From positions 1 through 53,331 of the forward strand of contig JAFRUN010000062.1 in assembly GCA_017438865.1 (NCBI GenBank): DNA of 53,331 nucleotides. Reading direction: 5' to 3'. The notes under the pieces were generated by a model. The model saw nothing but the letters and a program-made list of their open reading frames with translations, did not search any database and was not told where the DNA came from. The position numbers and the translations under genes are program-made. The DNA is from Clostridia bacterium (GTDB taxonomy: Bacteria > Bacillota > Clostridia > Christensenellales > CAG-138). Shown piece by piece: positions 2,324 to 43,515 of this stretch (positions within the stretch are counted from its first letter, which is position 1; each line of letters opens with the position of its first letter).

Positions 2324-2346
2324 TTTGTGTATTTTTACCGTGTTTC

Positions 2347-2375
2347 TTGACAACATACCCCGGGCATGATATATT
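2347..2375 (+). promoter_or_regulatory. Sigma-A promoter of the RiPP island
   Basis: A perfect TTGACA (2347-2352), a 17-nt spacer and TATATT (2370-2375) predict a transcript starting near 2382. The precursor gene then has AGGAGGA at 2394-2400 ten bases before its ATG. This is one of the strongest-looking promoters in the window, consistent with high expression of a small precursor peptide. Confidence 0.85.
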
Positions 2376-2410
2376 TATACAAAAGAATAATATAGGAGGA
2401 GAATATTAAC

Positions 2411-2536
2411 ATGGAGAAGAAGAATTTCAAAGGCTTTGAGCTGGAAGTGATCGAACTCGAGACGAAGGATGTTCTTGTGACGTCCGGCTGTGGCGAAGAT
2501 GAAGTTTACTCGTGTGACAAAGATTGTATAAAGTAA
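2411..2536 (+). CDS. Putative RiPP precursor peptide, 41 aa, three Cys
   Basis: A short ORF directly behind a near-consensus promoter and a perfect AGGAGGA site. The 41-residue product has an acidic, Lys/Glu-rich leader (MEKKNFKGFELEVIELETKD), a hinge DVLVTSG at residues 20-26, and a short C-terminal core SGCGEDEVYSCDKDC followed by IK. Cysteines are at 27, 35 and 39. From general knowledge of Clostridia, many small peptides of the form leader-DVITTSG-core sit beside radical SAM and PqqD genes; that resemblance is from memory and not searched. The downstream neighbours are two SPASM radical SAM enzymes and a PqqD-like protein, which makes a substrate role likely. Cys-to-Asp/Glu thioether links (ranthipeptide or sactipeptide style) would be a reasonable guess, but nothing in the sequence proves the chemistry. 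Confidence 0.75.
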   Translation: MEKKNFKGFELEVIELETKDVLVTSGCGEDEVYSCDKDCIK

Positions 2537-2544
2537 GAAGGTTA

Positions 2545-2625
2545 ATGCATGCCGGATTTTTGGATTGTGAAAAAGAAGAGGCATCATTTCACAAACAATC
2601 CATGATACTATTTAGTTTTTTATGA
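2545..2625 (+). CDS. Possible 26-aa coupling ORF before the first maturase
   Basis: An ATG at 2545 is preceded by AAGAAGGTT (from 2536) and opens a 26-codon frame (begins MHAGFLDCEKEEASF) whose TGA at 2623-2625 overlaps the maturase ATG at 2622 as ATGA. The maturase itself has no Shine-Dalgarno sequence and an in-frame TAG eight bases upstream, so reading through this ORF and re-initiating would explain its translation. The peptide resembles nothing I know and may have no function of its own. It could also be chance. Confidence 0.35.
   Translation: MHAGFLDCEKEEASFHKQSMILFSFL
2561..2602 (+). promoter_or_regulatory. Inverted repeat between precursor and first maturase
   Basis: TGGATTGT (2561-2568) is the exact reverse complement of ACAATCCA (2595-2602), with 26 nt between the arms. 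A run of T (2616-2621) follows after about a dozen bases. The long loop and delayed T run make it a weak terminator at best. It could act as an attenuator or RNA processing stem that keeps precursor mRNA in excess over maturase mRNA, a common arrangement in RiPP operons. That role is inferred. Confidence 0.4.
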
Positions 2626-3959
2626 AAGAGCTCTCATCCGGCGACAGTCGTGTCGTACATATCGTACAAAAAAGAAATCTTTATCCGGAGACGCGGTACA
2701 GGCGCTCCGGCTTTCTTGTTGATTACAAAGCAGGAGATGCAATCCTTCTTAAAAATACGCTGACAAATCAGGTCTTTGCCCTTTCAGAAGAGGAGTGGGC
2801 TGCAGTTCAAAATGCAGATATGTCTTGTTCCCATGTGCGGGAGCTTGCGCAATACCGTTTTTTGGTTGAGCCAGATTACAATGAGCTTGCACAGTATGCA
2901 TTTGCCCGAAATGTAGTTCGTGCGATGGAAAAAAACGATCCCGGAATCCGGTGGTATACCATTCTCATGACAACGGCATGCAATGCGCGATGCGTTTACT
3001 GTTATGAGGAAGGATGGCGTCCTTTCAGCATGAAAAAAGAAACTGCTGACGCCATTGTCGATTTTATTTGCCGCACAAAGCAAAAGGGAAAGATCCGTTT
3101 GATGTGGTTTGGGGGAGAGCCGCTTCTTGTACCGAAAAAGATCTCCTACATATGCAGGGCGCTGCAAAGCAAGGGCGTGGAATATGATAGCTCCACAATT
3201 ACCAACTGTACGCTTCTGACGCCGGAAATGGTTAAAGAAGCTGTTGCGCTTTGGCATCTGAAACGTGCACAGGTTTCAATGGACGGTGCAAAGGGAGATT
3301 ATGAGGCGCGCAAGCAGTATGTGCATCCGGAACGGGACAACTATGAAAAGGCGATGGAATCGATCGCAATGCTGTCAGATGCCGGCGTGGAGATAGTGAT
3401 TCGCTGTAATTATGATGCGGAGAACATTTCGAGGGTGCGGGAATTTCTTGACGACTGCAAAGTCCGATTCGGTGATCGTGAAAACGTTTCTTTGCATTTG
3501 GCGCAACTGTATCCGCCCAAAGGAAAAGACAACATGGCAGGCGCACTTGATGTGTACGAGAAAACTTTGGACTATTATGATGCGCTCGGCTTTGTTGAAA
3601 AGGCGAGGAATGCAAGCCGGATGAGAACGCACTTCTGTATGGCTGACTGGAATTGGATGAACATCGTAATTGATCCGAAGGGCGGGCTTCATTTCTGCGA
3701 ACTTGTTGCCGATGAAACTGCTGTCGGAACCGTTTTCGACCAAGATCCGCCGCACTTCCCGCCGATACACGATGAAGTAGCGGAGGAATGCAGAAACTGT
3801 TCATATCTTCCGCAATGTACGCCGTTTCGGAAAAGCAGTTGTCCGGTAGAAAATGCATATTGCCGAAGAGAAATGAAGATGAGCACCGTTCGAGAGATGC
3901 TTTCGCTGTACCGAAACGGACCGGTGGAGGAAGCTGCAGAAACTGAGGATTGCCCGTAA
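2622..3959 (+). CDS. Radical SAM/SPASM peptide maturase, copy 1
   Basis: A 445-residue enzyme. Residues 1-110 form an N-terminal domain with the LLKNTLTNQVFALSEEEW stretch typical of peptide-maturing radical SAM proteins. The radical SAM barrel has the 4Fe-4S motif C120-x3-C124-x2-C127 (ACNARCVYCYE) and WFGGEPLL, which contacts SAM. The C-terminal SPASM/twitch region has Cys at 339, 359, 390, 393, 399, 407 and 414, enough for auxiliary clusters. Such enzymes install thioether or other links on precursor peptides. It starts without a ribosome binding site, overlapping a short ORF by ATGA. Its paralogue follows 82 nt downstream. Unlike the paralogue it carries Cys196 where the TNG motif normally has Gly. 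Base composition is visibly more A+T-rich than the surrounding housekeeping genes. Confidence 0.88.
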   Translation: MKELSSGDSRVVHIVQKRNLYPETRYRRSGFLVDYKAGDAILLKNTLTNQVFALSEEEWAAVQNADMSCSHVRELAQYRFLVEPDYNELAQYAFARNVVRAMEKNDPGIRWYTILMTTACNARCVYCYEEGWRPFSMKKETADAIVDFICRTKQKGKIRLMWFGGEPLLVPKKISYICRALQSKGVEYDSSTITNCTLLTPEMVKEAVALWHLKRAQVSMDGAKGDYEARKQYVHPERDNYEKAMESIAMLSDAGVEIVIRCNYDAENISRVREFLDDCKVRFGDRENVSLHLAQLYPPKGKDNMAGALDVYEKTLDYYDALGFVEKARNASRMRTHFCMADWNWMNIVIDPKGGLHFCELVADETAVGTVFDQDPPHFPPIHDEVAEECRNCSYLPQCTPFRKSSCPVENAYCRREMKMSTVREMLSLYRNGPVEEAAETEDCP

Positions 3960-4041
3960 AAAGAAGAAGAAACAAATGAATTCCGGCGTGTCTGTCAGGC
4001 ACAGGGTAGGACAATAACAATCCCAGAAAACACATTATTCT

Positions 4042-5385
4042 ATGAGAGAGCTCTTATCCGGCAACAATCGTGTTGCGCAGATCGTACAAAAGAAAAGTCT
4101 TAATCCCGAGACGCGGTACAGGCGCTCCAACTTTGTTGTTGACTGCATGGTGGGGGGCGTTATTCTTTTGAAGAATACGCTGACGAATCAGGTCTATGAG
4201 CTTTCCGAAAAGGAATGGGATTCGTTTTGCAAAGCGGATTTGTCTTATGCTCATGTGCGGGAGCTTGCACAAAACCGGTTTCTGGTGGAGTCCGATTACG
4301 ATGAACTTGCACAATATGAGCTGGTACGCAATGCGCTTCGTACATTGGAAAAAACCAAACCGGGGATTCGGCGATATACCATTCTTCCAACGACTGCCTG
4401 CAATGCGCGCTGTGTTTATTGTTATGAGGAAAGCTGGCGTTCCGTCAGCATGACAAAGGAAACAGCCGATGCTGTGATCGATTTTATCTGCCGCACAAAA
4501 CAGGACGGGCGGATCCGTTTGACATGGTTCGGCGGAGAGCCGCTTCTTGCGCCGAAAACGATCTCCTATATTTGTAGCGTATTGCAAAGCAGGGACATAG
4601 ATTACGACAGCTCCACCGTCACAAACGGTACGCTGCTGACGCCCGAAATGGCAAAGGAAGCCGTGGAGCTGTGGCGCTTGAAACGCGTGCAGGTTTCCAT
4701 GGATGGCGCAAGGGAAGATTATGAGGCGCGCAAGCGGTATGTGCATCCGGAACGGGACAATTATGAAAAGGCGATGGAATCAATTGCCATGCTCTCGGAC
4801 ACGGGGGTAGAGATCTCAATCCGCTGCAATTATGACGCTGAGAACATTTCGAGGGTACGGGAATTTCTTGACGACTGCAAGGATCGTTTCGGTGAGCGTA
4901 AGAATGTATCCATTTACTTGGCGCAACTGTATCCATCCGGTGAAGAAGATAATATGGCGGGCGCCCTCGACGAACAGGAGAAAACGTTGGAACACTTTAA
5001 CGAGCTCGGATTTGTTGAGAGGTCAAGGAGCGCAAACCGGTTGAGAACGCATTATTGTATGTCTGATTCAAAAGGGAAAACGGTCGTGATCGATCCGAAA
5101 GGCGGGCTTCATTTCTGCGAGCATGTAGCAGAGGGAACGGCGTTCGGGACTGTTTTCGACCAAAATCCGCCGCGTTTTCCGGCGATTTCCGATGAAATCG
5201 CAGAGGAATGCAGAAGCTGTCCGTATCTTCCGCAATGTACGCCGTTTCGGAAAAGCAACTGTCCTGTGAAGAATGCATTCTGCCGGAGAGAAATGAACTT
5301 GAGCACCGTTCGCGAAATGCTTGCGCTGCATCGCAAACAAACATGGACGGAAGAAGCGGAAGAAAACGAACCGATCAATTGCTAA
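4042..5385 (+). CDS. Radical SAM/SPASM peptide maturase, copy 2
   Basis: A 447-residue paralogue of the preceding gene, alignable almost without gaps over its whole length; by eye roughly two thirds or more of residues match (not computed). Cluster motif ACNARCVYCYE places Cys at 120, 124 and 127; WFGGEPLL and the SPASM cysteines (for example HFCEHVAEG, EECRSCPYLPQC, NCPVKNAFC) are all kept. It has the usual Gly at 196 (TVTNGTLL). Differences concentrate in the first 110 residues and between the first SPASM cysteines (DSKGKTVVID versus DWNWMNIVID), the regions likely to meet substrate. Similarity at DNA level begins at the start codon. Like copy 1 there is no clear Shine-Dalgarno sequence. 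A tandem duplication followed by divergence is the simplest reading. Confidence 0.88.
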   Translation: MRELLSGNNRVAQIVQKKSLNPETRYRRSNFVVDCMVGGVILLKNTLTNQVYELSEKEWDSFCKADLSYAHVRELAQNRFLVESDYDELAQYELVRNALRTLEKTKPGIRRYTILPTTACNARCVYCYEESWRSVSMTKETADAVIDFICRTKQDGRIRLTWFGGEPLLAPKTISYICSVLQSRDIDYDSSTVTNGTLLTPEMAKEAVELWRLKRVQVSMDGAREDYEARKRYVHPERDNYEKAMESIAMLSDTGVEISIRCNYDAENISRVREFLDDCKDRFGERKNVSIYLAQLYPSGEEDNMAGALDEQEKTLEHFNELGFVERSRSANRLRTHYCMSDSKGKTVVIDPKGGLHFCEHVAEGTAFGTVFDQNPPRFPAISDEIAEECRSCPYLPQCTPFRKSNCPVKNAFCRREMNLSTVREMLALHRKQTWTEEAEENEPINC

Positions 5386-5406
5386 AAACGGAAAGGAACT
5401 GGAAAA

Positions 5407-5667
5407 ATGAAACTCAGCAATCAGTTTATCGCCTATCAGGCGCAGGATCAGACCGTTCTGGTCGCGGTAGGCGGCGCGGCGTTTTCGGGGCTGATCCGCG
5501 GAAACGAAGCGCTCGGGGAACTGCTTTCCCTGCTCAAAGAGGAAACTGCGGAGGCGGATCTGATCGCCGCCATGCGCGAGCGGTACGATGCGCCGGATGG
5601 CGCGATCGAAAAAGCCGTGCGCGACGCGCTGGAACAGCTTCGCGCGGTCGGTGCTTTGGAGGAATAA
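5407..5667 (+). CDS. PqqD-like RiPP recognition protein
   Basis: An 86-residue stand-alone protein of the PqqD fold (RRE, RiPP recognition element). The opening beta-hairpin FIAYQAQDQTVLVAVGGAAF, the segment LIRGNEALGELLSLLKEE and the helix FxxxxDAPDGAIEKAVRDALEQL with a final beta-wing RAVGALEE match the winged-helix layout of PqqD. In characterised systems such proteins bind the leader peptide and deliver it to a radical SAM enzyme. AAAGGAAC precedes the ATG and the gap to the second maturase is 21 nt, so it is the last gene of the operon. Codon use is more G+C-rich than in the two maturases. No exporter or leader peptidase gene is next to the cluster. Confidence 0.8.
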   Translation: MKLSNQFIAYQAQDQTVLVAVGGAAFSGLIRGNEALGELLSLLKEETAEADLIAAMRERYDAPDGAIEKAVRDALEQLRAVGALEE

Positions 5668-5676
5668 AAGAAAAGC

Positions 5677-5734
5677 GCGGGTGAAGCCACCCGCACAATA
5701 TATTTGCGGGATGCCGGTTTCGGCATCCCGCTTT
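5677..5734. terminator. Bidirectional terminator between PqqD-like gene and M18 peptidase
   Basis: Two stems are present. The small one is GCGGGT (5677-5682) with ACCCGC (5689-5694). The main one is GCGGGATGCCG (5706-5716), a GTTT loop and CGGCATCCCGC (5721-5731), an 11-bp perfect stem. TTT follows on the plus strand and AAATATATT, read from the other side, on the minus strand. It separates two convergent operons. Confidence 0.85.
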
Positions 5735-5738
5735 GACG

Positions 5739-41717: not shown

Positions 41718-43139
41718 ATGAAAACGATCACGATCGCTCCGCTTTCCACGCCGAAAACGCTGACGCGCGACGCGTGGGACGTCGTTTCGCATACGGCAAA
41801 CCTGTATCTGCAGACCGCGGAACATCCCTCGGCGCGACCGGTCCTGGAAGCCGGTCTTTCGTTTGTTTCGATGGACGATCTTTACGAATCCGCGGACGAT
41901 TTCGACGCGCTGAACGAAGCGATCGCGGCACGGCTCACGTCCGGCGGGGACTGCGTCTACGCGGTCATGGGCGACGGCTGCTTTGCGCAGCTTCCTGCGA
42001 TCGAAAAAGCCGCGAAAAAGCGCGGCTTCCGCGTCGACGTTCTTCCGGGCGTGTCCTATGCGAAGGCGGCGTTTCCGGCAGTGCAGGACGCCGCGGTGTT
42101 CACGGCGCGCACGCTGCCGAAGCGCGTCGATCCGGACGTGCCGCTGCTTGTGCAGGAGCTTGACAGCCCGATCATTGCGGGCGAAGTGAAGCTCGCGCTG
42201 TCTGCGATCTATCCGGAAGACCGGCCGGTGACGCTCGCCACGCTGCAGCCGGACGGACATTATGCGTACCGTTCGTTTCCGCTTACGGAGCTCGACCGGC
42301 GCCGGACGCTGTCTGCCGGTTCGGTTCTGTATGTAAAACCCGCGCCGTTCGACGAGCGCACGCGCTACGGCTATTACGATCTCGTCGCCGTTATGCGGCG
42401 GCTTCGCGCGCCGGGCGGCTGTCCGTGGGACCGCGAGCAGACGCATGAGAGCTTAAAGGGCGATCTCATCGAGGAATGCTACGAGCTGAACGACGCGATC
42501 GACGAGCAGGACGACGCGCACATCGTCGAGGAGCTCGGCGACGTGCTGATGGACGTCGTGTTCCATGCGACGATCGCGGACGAGCAGGGACGCTTCAACG
42601 AAAACGACGTGGCGGACGGCATCGTAAAGAAGCTCGTTTACCGTCATCCGCATGTATTCGGCACGTCAAAGGCGCAGACGTCCGAAGAAGTGCTTATTCA
42701 ATGGGACGCGCTGAAGCAGAAGGAAAAGAATCAGAAAACACAGAAAGAGGTCCTCTGCGCCGTTCCGAAACGGTTTCCCGCGCTGATGCGTTCCGCAAAA
42801 GTCCAGAAGCGCGCGAGAAAGGTCGGCTTCGACTGGAACGGCGTTTCGGAAGCGATGCCGAAGGTCTATGAGGAGCTCGACGAGCTGAAGGCGGCGATGG
42901 ACGGGAACGGCTCCGTCTCCGAGGAGGCGGGCGATCTGCTCTTTGCGATCGTGAACGTGATCCGGCTTTTGGGACTCGACGGCGAACAGCTTCTGCATGA
43001 CGCGACGGACAAGTTCATCACGCGTTTCGGAAGGATGGAAGAGCTCGCCGCAGCGGACGGGAAGGATTTGGCGAAGCTCCCGCTGTCCGAACAGGACAAA
43101 TACTGGGAGCAGGCCAAAAAATCCCTGTTTTCCGAGTGA
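41718..43139 (+). CDS. mazG: TP-methylase/MazG fusion nucleotide pyrophosphohydrolase (YabN-like)
   Basis: A 473-residue two-part protein. The N-terminal 220 residues are a tetrapyrrole-methylase-like domain (ITIAPLSTPKTLTRDAWDVV, VYAVMGDGCFAQ) that in YabN is not known to act on tetrapyrroles. From about residue 225 follow two MazG domains: RAPGGCPWDREQTHESLKGDLIEECYEL with the EEx2E metal site and HIVEELGDVLMDVVFHA, then a second, weaker copy (VYEELDELKAAM, EEAGDLLFAIVNV). MazG hydrolyses non-canonical or stress NTPs. AAGGAGATAAT precedes the ATG. It lies between the flippase and HU genes. Confidence 0.93.
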   Translation: MKTITIAPLSTPKTLTRDAWDVVSHTANLYLQTAEHPSARPVLEAGLSFVSMDDLYESADDFDALNEAIAARLTSGGDCVYAVMGDGCFAQLPAIEKAAKKRGFRVDVLPGVSYAKAAFPAVQDAAVFTARTLPKRVDPDVPLLVQELDSPIIAGEVKLALSAIYPEDRPVTLATLQPDGHYAYRSFPLTELDRRRTLSAGSVLYVKPAPFDERTRYGYYDLVAVMRRLRAPGGCPWDREQTHESLKGDLIEECYELNDAIDEQDDAHIVEELGDVLMDVVFHATIADEQGRFNENDVADGIVKKLVYRHPHVFGTSKAQTSEEVLIQWDALKQKEKNQKTQKEVLCAVPKRFPALMRSAKVQKRARKVGFDWNGVSEAMPKVYEELDELKAAMDGNGSVSEEAGDLLFAIVNVIRLLGLDGEQLLHDATDKFITRFGRMEELAAADGKDLAKLPLSEQDKYWEQAKKSLFSE

Positions 43140-43156
43140 TTTTGGAAAAATGGTAC

Positions 43157-43185
43157 TTGACGAAAGCGGTTTTGTTTGATAAAAT
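43157..43185 (+). promoter_or_regulatory. Promoter of the HU gene
   Basis: TTGACG (43157-43162), 17-nt spacer, TAAAAT (43180-43185), about 57 nt before the ATG. This gives the abundant HU protein its own promoter within the mazG region. Confidence 0.82.
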
Positions 43186-43242
43186 ACGCTCTGCTCGTCA
43201 AGAGTATTATCACTTTTGAAAACTATTTACGGAGGAATAATC

Positions 43243-43515
43243 ATGAACAAGACTGAACTCATTGCAGCAGTTGCAGAGAAGAGCGATCTGTCCAAAAAGG
43301 ACGCAGAGAAGGCCGTCAACGCGGTTGTCAACACCATCATCGACGCGCTGAAGGCGGACGAGAAGGTTTCCGTCGTCGGTTTCGGTTCCTTTGAAGCGAA
43401 GACGCGTCCGGCACGCAAGGGCCACAACCCGGCAACCGGCAAGGAGATCGAGATTGCGGCAACGAAGTCCGCTGCGTTCAAGGCAGGCAAAGCCCTGAAG
43501 GAAGCGCTCAACTAA
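43243..43515 (+). CDS. hup: HU family DNA-binding protein
   Basis: A 90-residue nucleoid protein that bends and compacts DNA. It has the standard [20 protein letters not shown] start, the [19 protein letters not shown] arm region with GNPATG-like NPATGKEI, and the end [29 protein letters not shown] gives a strong ribosome site. Its position after mazG is usual in Bacillota. Own promoter and terminator. Confidence 0.97.

Follow-up and report, generated by a model that had tools for sequence, protein, structure and literature searches.

What does a 41-codon open reading frame (ORF) followed by two paralogous radical S-adenosylmethionine (SAM) enzymes make, and by which chemistry? This question is raised by a gene block near the start of contig JAFRUN010000062.1 of a Clostridia bacterium (assembly GCA_017438865.1, 1.92 Mb, 79.5% complete). 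The window analyzed here is that 53,331-nt contig, C57 in our numbering. A first-pass annotation, made from the letters of the DNA, had read the block as a compact island for a ribosomally synthesized and post-translationally modified peptide (RiPP), and our analysis makes a radical SAM/SPASM-type RiPP island very likely on the sequence evidence set out below. The features of the island are:

2347..2375, + strand: predicted promoter-like site TTGACA-17-TATATT, matching the consensus at 11 of 12 positions, TG preceding the -10
2411..2536, + strand: precursor peptide ORF, 41 aa, MEKKNFKGFELEVIELETKDVLVTSGCGEDEVYSCDKDCIK, from the ORF and the leader profile
2622..3959, + strand: radical SAM/SPASM maturase 1 (rSAM1), 445 aa, C-terminus EDCP, from Pfam and cluster cysteines
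4042..5385, + strand: radical SAM/SPASM maturase 2 (rSAM2), 447 aa, C-terminus EPINC, from Pfam and cluster cysteines
5407..5667, + strand: stand-alone PqqD-like protein of the RiPP recognition element (RRE) type, 86 aa, from PF05402
5677..5694, + strand: first hairpin 3' of pqqD, with a T-run after it on the - strand
5706..5731, + strand: second, stronger hairpin, followed by only TTT on the + strand

The strongest support for the RiPP reading comes from the family to which the small ORF belongs. The precursor profile was started from 16 seed precursors and iterated on the same loci in which it was then counted, so that the counts given here are in-sample. A search of 94 maturase loci with this profile gave 91 precursor matches in 72 loci; 88 of these matches, in 69 loci, lie on the maturase strand, and in 58 loci the precursor is found at most 700 nt upstream of a maturase. 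The window precursor matches the leader profile, whose consensus is MKKYEKPEMEVIELDSEDVITTSSCPTETPDICV, at an E-value of 5e-11, and both of the two loci fetched later have a precursor. The combination that characterizes RiPP loci, a short precursor with a conserved leader and a variable core beside a modifying enzyme, is thus present in 69 of the 94 loci, with the modification itself predicted. The first-pass annotation had named as its refutation that homologous loci consistently lack the small ORF; the 69 loci with a precursor on the maturase strand show the opposite pattern, and they also rule out that the 41-codon frame is a chance ORF. The precursor appears to belong to a wider gut-bacterial peptide family that matched no named family, and the 41-mer itself matched no Pfam family at an E-value of 1 or better. 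In a search for further precursors outside this set, 391 genomes of the class, searched at 1e-90, gave two matching genomes besides the own genome, and two further groups of 16 genomes each, searched at 1e-60 and 1e-55, gave no match beyond the centre genome. Within the family, the precursors of L112 and L113 are free of Cys and end in LPELP, which is close to how the second precursors of several maturase clusters end. One contig (L035) carries four maturases in a row with four precursors among them; three of these precursors have a TPEPTPC-type spacer, and one maturase, which follows another, lacks its own precursor.

The gene content of the island was also largely as first described. Judged from the sequence, the 41-codon ORF, the two intact maturase genes, and the PqqD-like gene are confirmed as one operon-like block. 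The claim of a near-consensus promoter is borne out by the site at 2347–2375, the only one above 9 of 12 matches between positions 1500 and 7100, a region with 10 sites of at least 9 of 12 compared to 3.4 ± 1.9 in shuffles. The 41-residue peptide consists of a leader that extends to about Ser25 and the core GCGEDEVYSCDKDCIK, and carries Cys27, Cys35, and Cys39 as annotated. The two full-length radical SAM/SPASM enzymes and the stand-alone PqqD are likewise upheld by intact ORFs and by Pfam scores above the cut-offs (Radical_SAM, 58.7 and 65.2 bits vs. 29.5; PF05402, 36.7 bits vs. 23.4). The maturases share 72% identity, and a direct repeat of 300 nt (76% identical) starts just before each maturase start codon. 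Nonsynonymous and synonymous divergence (dN 0.15, dS 1.0) indicate purifying selection, and the maturases therefore look like old duplicates that are both under selection.

Both window maturases have the CX3CX2C motif and the SPASM cysteines, and 61 of 61 maturases, these two included, keep the same ten cysteines; the window enzymes hold further, non-invariant Cys in addition. By their order against the ligands of PapB (as given in the available part of PMC10470005), C120, C124, and C127 would hold the SAM cluster, C390, C393, C399, and C414 auxiliary cluster II, and C339, C359, and C407 auxiliary cluster I. An auxiliary cluster I with three Cys leaves an open site able to bind substrate in ranthipeptide maturases, according to the portion of PMC10452713 available to us. 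Relatives of maturase 2 at an E-value of 1e-40 or better were found in 16 of 101 genomes, its own included, and a scan of the genome collection gave at least 585 stretches, at least 531 of them encoding maturase relatives, of which we retained the best 80, representing 79 loci. Among the matches listed, the named relatives are mostly from rumen and gut Clostridia assemblies. In a quick tree (SH-aLRT only), the window maturases group with L126, L128, and L031 with a support of 100. We rejected membership of the named maturase families: for each maturase, the top 25 NCBIfam matches all score below cut-off, and they are spread over several chemistries.

The precursor cores point to the chemistry. 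We kept 71 of 86 precursors at no more than 40% identity, 66 of them with Cys and with 135 Cys in total, a set from which some early core Cys are omitted because the core start assigned by the profile is late in some precursors. Asp or Glu occurs exactly three residues after Cys 51 times, compared to 23.1 ± 4.0 in shuffled cores (0 of 2000 shuffles as high), and this is the strongest of 336 residue-offset tests; an earlier first pass had given 58 vs. 28.4. A version of the core set independent of the core boundary (74 of 86 precursors kept, 68 with Cys) gave 60 vs. 26.7 ± 4.4 at Cys+3 and no enrichment of Asp/Glu at Cys -3, +2, or +4 (at +4, 25 vs. 25.4). Over the whole set, Asp/Glu is also not enriched three residues after Ser/Thr or Gly. 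The signal is present in each group of the maturase tree: 12 vs. 5.7 in clade A, which includes the window and has 14 cores (4 of 1000 shuffles as high), 21 vs. 11.1 in clade B (2 of 1000), and 27 vs. 9.9 in the rest (0 of 1000). In the later loci, three of five core Cys have Asp/Glu at +3 by eye. In the window core, Cys27 and Cys35 lie eight residues apart and are followed at +3 by Asp30 and Asp38, respectively.

We therefore favor, with a probability of roughly 60%, a minimal RiPP operon whose maturases would form Cys27–Asp30 and Cys35–Asp38 thioether rings and leave Cys39 free. Two findings, the Cys+3 Asp/Glu signal and the three cysteines available for auxiliary cluster I, lift the thioether suggested in the first-pass annotation above guesswork, and Cys-X2-Asp/Glu rings are the best-supported chemistry that we infer from the cores; for the ranthipeptide thioether class as such, the support that the sequences provide is the Cys+3 Asp/Glu enrichment. 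On this reading, the 41-mer would be expressed from the promoter at 2347–2375, and the PqqD-like protein may bind its leader (about residues 1–25) and present it to both maturases. Each maturase would cleave SAM at its CX3CX2C cluster, a hydrogen would be taken from the side chain of the Asp/Glu three residues after Cys, and the Asp/Glu carbon would be joined to the sulfur of a Cys held at the open auxiliary cluster I site. The predicted product is a short acidic peptide with two thioether rings, a loss of 4.03 Da, and a free Cys39, and the two maturases might divide the labor between them. If correct, ring positions in gut and rumen peptides that lack a named family could be read from DNA by Cys-X2-Asp/Glu, and the maturases would have a natural ring size unlike that of PapB.

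The genes around related maturases vary more than the precursor–maturase pair. In 13 of the 17 loci that we fetched within the genus, a PqqD-like gene comes directly after a maturase. In L126, the same minimal precursor–maturase–PqqD unit lies at a different chromosomal place, without an exporter, between genes that by eye encode a 1336-aa DNA polymerase III alpha-like and an RNase Y-like protein. L128 has a fuller cluster composed of precursor, maturase, PqqD, an HPrK-like protein, an S26-like signal-peptidase-like protein, and an ATP-binding cassette (ABC) transporter, the HPrK-like and peptidase-like names resting on matches below curated cut-offs. Within 5 kb of the maturase in the 94 loci, many of which are cut by contig ends, we counted PqqD in 43, HPrK-like genes in 35, signal-peptidase-like genes in 33, and ABC genes (unspecific matches) in 19; 32 loci had none of the four. 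The first-pass statement that no exporter or protease is encoded beside the island is correct: the window yielded no match for HPrK-like or S26-like genes, and ABC genes were likewise not found close to the island, so that leader removal and export would be supplied from elsewhere or may not happen. The same genome has a second precursor–maturase–PqqD–peptidase cluster on contig C3, with its own signal-peptidase-like gene. On a further contig of this genome, C41 (L245, G000:C41), an HPrK-like gene at 42751–43494 that is 65% identical to that of L112 stands alone; no PqqD, precursor, or exporter was recognized beside it. Five loci of the same genus (L112, L113, L114, L115, and L117) have clusters of HPrK-like, PqqD, and ABC transporter genes, with a signal-peptidase-like gene in four of the five and no such maturase on the fetched stretch.

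The island sits between genes for a short-chain dehydrogenase/reductase (SDR) and an M18 aminopeptidase. Among 61 genomes, 22 (its own included) contain a match to the SDR gene; of the 21 others, 12 were fetched, all from the same genus. In these 12 relatives the order rpoD, trpS, SDR, M18 aminopeptidase is kept wherever the fetched stretch reaches; both SDR and M18 are present in 11 of the 12 stretches, the exception being L100, whose SDR gene runs to the end of its contig. The gap between the two genes in the 11 relatives is 28–57 bp in seven, 595 bp in one, and 1.55–1.66 kb with another gene in three. This comparison of gene order identifies the island as inserted DNA at the SDR–M18 junction. 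The three relatives with another gene at this junction are L101, L103, and L105, and both of those scanned (L101 and L103) have DUF6034 there, so the junction may be a favored insertion point. Base composition differs along the island: GC content is 47.6% for 2324–5406 and 61.3% for pqqD, with the flanks at 60.6% and 58.0%, and third-position GC is 0.49 and 0.56 in the maturases, 0.71 in pqqD, 0.78 in SDR, and 0.81 in trpS. The GC content of pqqD, unlike that of the rest of the island, suggests that this gene may have a separate history. As part of our best explanation, the island is probably a horizontally acquired minimal RiPP operon, with a presumed direction of transfer. The strong terminator of the first-pass annotation stands in part: both hairpins after pqqD are stable (z -5.6), but their strength as a + strand terminator was overstated, only TTT following the second. 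The T-run on the - strand after the hairpin at 5677–5694 means that it can serve the M18 gene, and a hairpin-like sequence is present by eye between the SDR and M18 genes in all seven relatives with a short, empty site, so that the hairpin at 5706–5731 is probably an older terminator shared by SDR and M18 and not part of the island. We saw no sign that the unit itself is carried by phages or plasmids, the matches being six plasmid records at 26–31% identity, three phage records at no more than 29%, and 30 viral-contig loci at 22–36% identity, none of these loci with a precursor. Separately, a lone maturase at L127:5001–8290, from the same record as L031 and 53% identical to maturase 2, adjoins phage-type genes that include one for an endolysin-like domain protein, with no precursor or PqqD found beside it.

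Several observations weigh against the favored reading. Precursor matches are on the opposite strand only in 3 of the 94 loci and absent by profile in 22, and comparison of the maturases with the PqqD profile by hhalign did not detect an N-terminal RRE (probability 1.9%). The spacing rule holds for 51 of the 126 Cys that have a +3 residue, so many Cys must do something else, and Cys +8, Ile/Val +7, Pro/Thr +1, Ala +2, and Ser -1 are also enriched around Cys. Two of the three window Cys fit; Cys39, two residues from the end, can have no +3 partner, and Cys27 also has Glu31 at +4. In clade A, Asp/Glu is enriched at Gly+3 as well (12 vs. 5.4, 1 of 1000 shuffles as high), an enrichment absent from clade B, the rest, and the whole set; with only 14 cores, the spacing in clade A cannot be called Cys-specific, and the shuffles leave some shared ancestry in place. 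Arg372, essential in PapB in the available text of PMC9413430, corresponds by its offset from the second auxiliary cluster I Cys (two residues after it) to His in 45 and Arg in 1 of 61 maturases, with Leu361 in maturase 1 and His361 in maturase 2. The same RiPP island might thus carry out another chemistry, such as a sactipeptide-type bond from Cys to an alpha-carbon, a bond to another acceptor, carbon–carbon bond formation, or epimerization, with the +3 Asp/Glu used for recognition or metal binding. The lack of a conserved PapB arginine, the several chemistries among the sub-cut-off NCBIfam matches, the Gly+3 enrichment, and the 4 of 71 cores without Cys fit this explanation. We consider it unlikely, though deserving of serious attention, in view of the sharp and directional signal over the whole set, which does not follow Ser/Thr or Gly, and of the link between a three-Cys auxiliary cluster I and C–S bond formation drawn in the part of PMC10452713 at hand.

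Two other explanations concern the fate of the peptide and of the island. The mature product could be an intracellular redox or metal-binding peptide, similar to small modified cofactor peptides, which would account for the lack of an encoded exporter or protease; the acidic core, the unpartnered Cys39, and the recurrence of the minimal unit without an exporter in L126 are consistent with such a role. The peptidase-like and ABC genes in the cluster of the close relative L128 argue against it, as do the variable cores, which better fit secreted, diversifying peptides, and we hold an intracellular role to be improbable. It is more doubtful still that the island is decaying or orphaned, with its export half lost and the remainder on its way out. 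The missing HPrK-like, S26-like, and ABC genes, the orphan HPrK-like gene on C41, and the host-like GC content of pqqD (61% vs. 48% for the rest of the island), from which the parts may be of mixed origin, fit this case, but the ORFs are intact, the promoter match is good, all ten cluster cysteines are kept in both maturases, and dN/dS is low.

The maturases themselves have an additional feature at their C-termini. Among 99 untruncated maturases longer than 380 aa, Cys is the last residue in 40 and the second-last in 3, while positions -3 to -5 never hold one. Acidic residues make up 32% of the last 15 positions in maturases with Cys among the last four and 23% in the others, compared to 14% for whole proteins. 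On a tree of 94 enzymes built without the tails, explaining the C-terminal Cys takes 11 changes, and well supported branches make 9 of these unavoidable, which indicates that this residue comes and goes. We found no support for a link between the C-terminal Cys and PqqD genes in nine independent pairs (same direction 2.3 and opposite 0.8 on average, median p 0.63), and among the matches listed in the literature we recognized no description of a C-terminal Cys in maturases. We speculate that the Cys tail caps the open site or mimics the substrate. In a tentative extension that we regard as rather unlikely, the family would be a new class resembling ranthipeptides, with rings from Cys at i to Asp/Glu at i+3, in which an acidic, Cys-ending maturase tail that mimics the core caps the open auxiliary cluster I site until a substrate Cys displaces it; two such enzymes would act on the single window precursor, possibly forming one ring each. 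If so, an exact C-terminal Cys would be a direct handle on the role of the open site before the substrate arrives.

How does the island compare with known systems? Titles and abstract starts of the open-licence papers among the matches listed gave no recognized report on this family, none was found in that literature on FlmE/OhkG with radical SAM, and SynChlorMet was not mentioned in the matches listed. The SynChlorMet (Scm) cassette has two SPASM enzymes, a PqqD-like protein, and a small peptide, the same architecture as the island; maturase 2 scores 47.1 of the 400 bits required for ScmE, and the HPrK-like protein of L128 is a weak match to ScmC (1.1e-4, 21.6 of 125 bits), both short of membership. 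TIGR04463, a family of SPASM RiPP maturases with Cys-rich peptides, is the best NCBIfam match of maturase 2 (residues 37–402) and is matched by 61 of 61 members of set A2 at 1e-10 or better, but the scores of 153 bits for maturase 2 and 113.4 for maturase 1 fall below its cut-off of 525. Maturase 1 is best matched by TIGR04280 (121.8 bits vs. a cut-off of 400). SCIFF precursors have six Cys, whereas the window precursor has three. The SCIFF family TIGR03974 matches 34 of 61 maturases at 1e-10 or better and is absent from the 25 best matches of maturase 2. Among solved structures, the maturase profile matches 5wgg best (1.6e-20), from the SCIFF/CteB (thermocellin) ranthipeptide system; this entry is named as CteB in the available part of PMC10470005 and is given a three-Cys auxiliary cluster I in an excerpt of PMC10452713.

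A further parallel is with the PapA/PapB ranthipeptide system (freyrasin). PapB is a SPASM enzyme that forms Cys-Asp/Glu thioethers, with a natural spacing of Cys-X3-Asp/Glu, and accepts Cys-Xn-Asp with n from 0 to 6 in vitro (as stated in the available text of PMC9413430). The island differs from it in several respects: the maturases score 92.0 and 96.7 bits against the cut-off of 340 for the PapB family NF047865, the cysteine spacing differs after the third auxiliary cluster II cysteine, and a separate PqqD-like gene and two maturases are present. The Cys-X3-Asp/Glu motif of the PapB family is also not a property of the precursor family (25 vs. 25.4 at +4, compared to 60 vs. 26.7 at +3), the spacing here being Cys-X2-Asp/Glu, unlike the Cys-X3 of PapA; the range of n accepted by PapB means, however, that spacing alone does not set the window enzymes apart. 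Both systems share the ten cluster cysteines in the same order (PMC10470005, part available) and a Cys- and Asp/Glu-rich core behind a leader, in which Cys precedes its acidic partner (available parts of PMC9413430 and PMC10470005).

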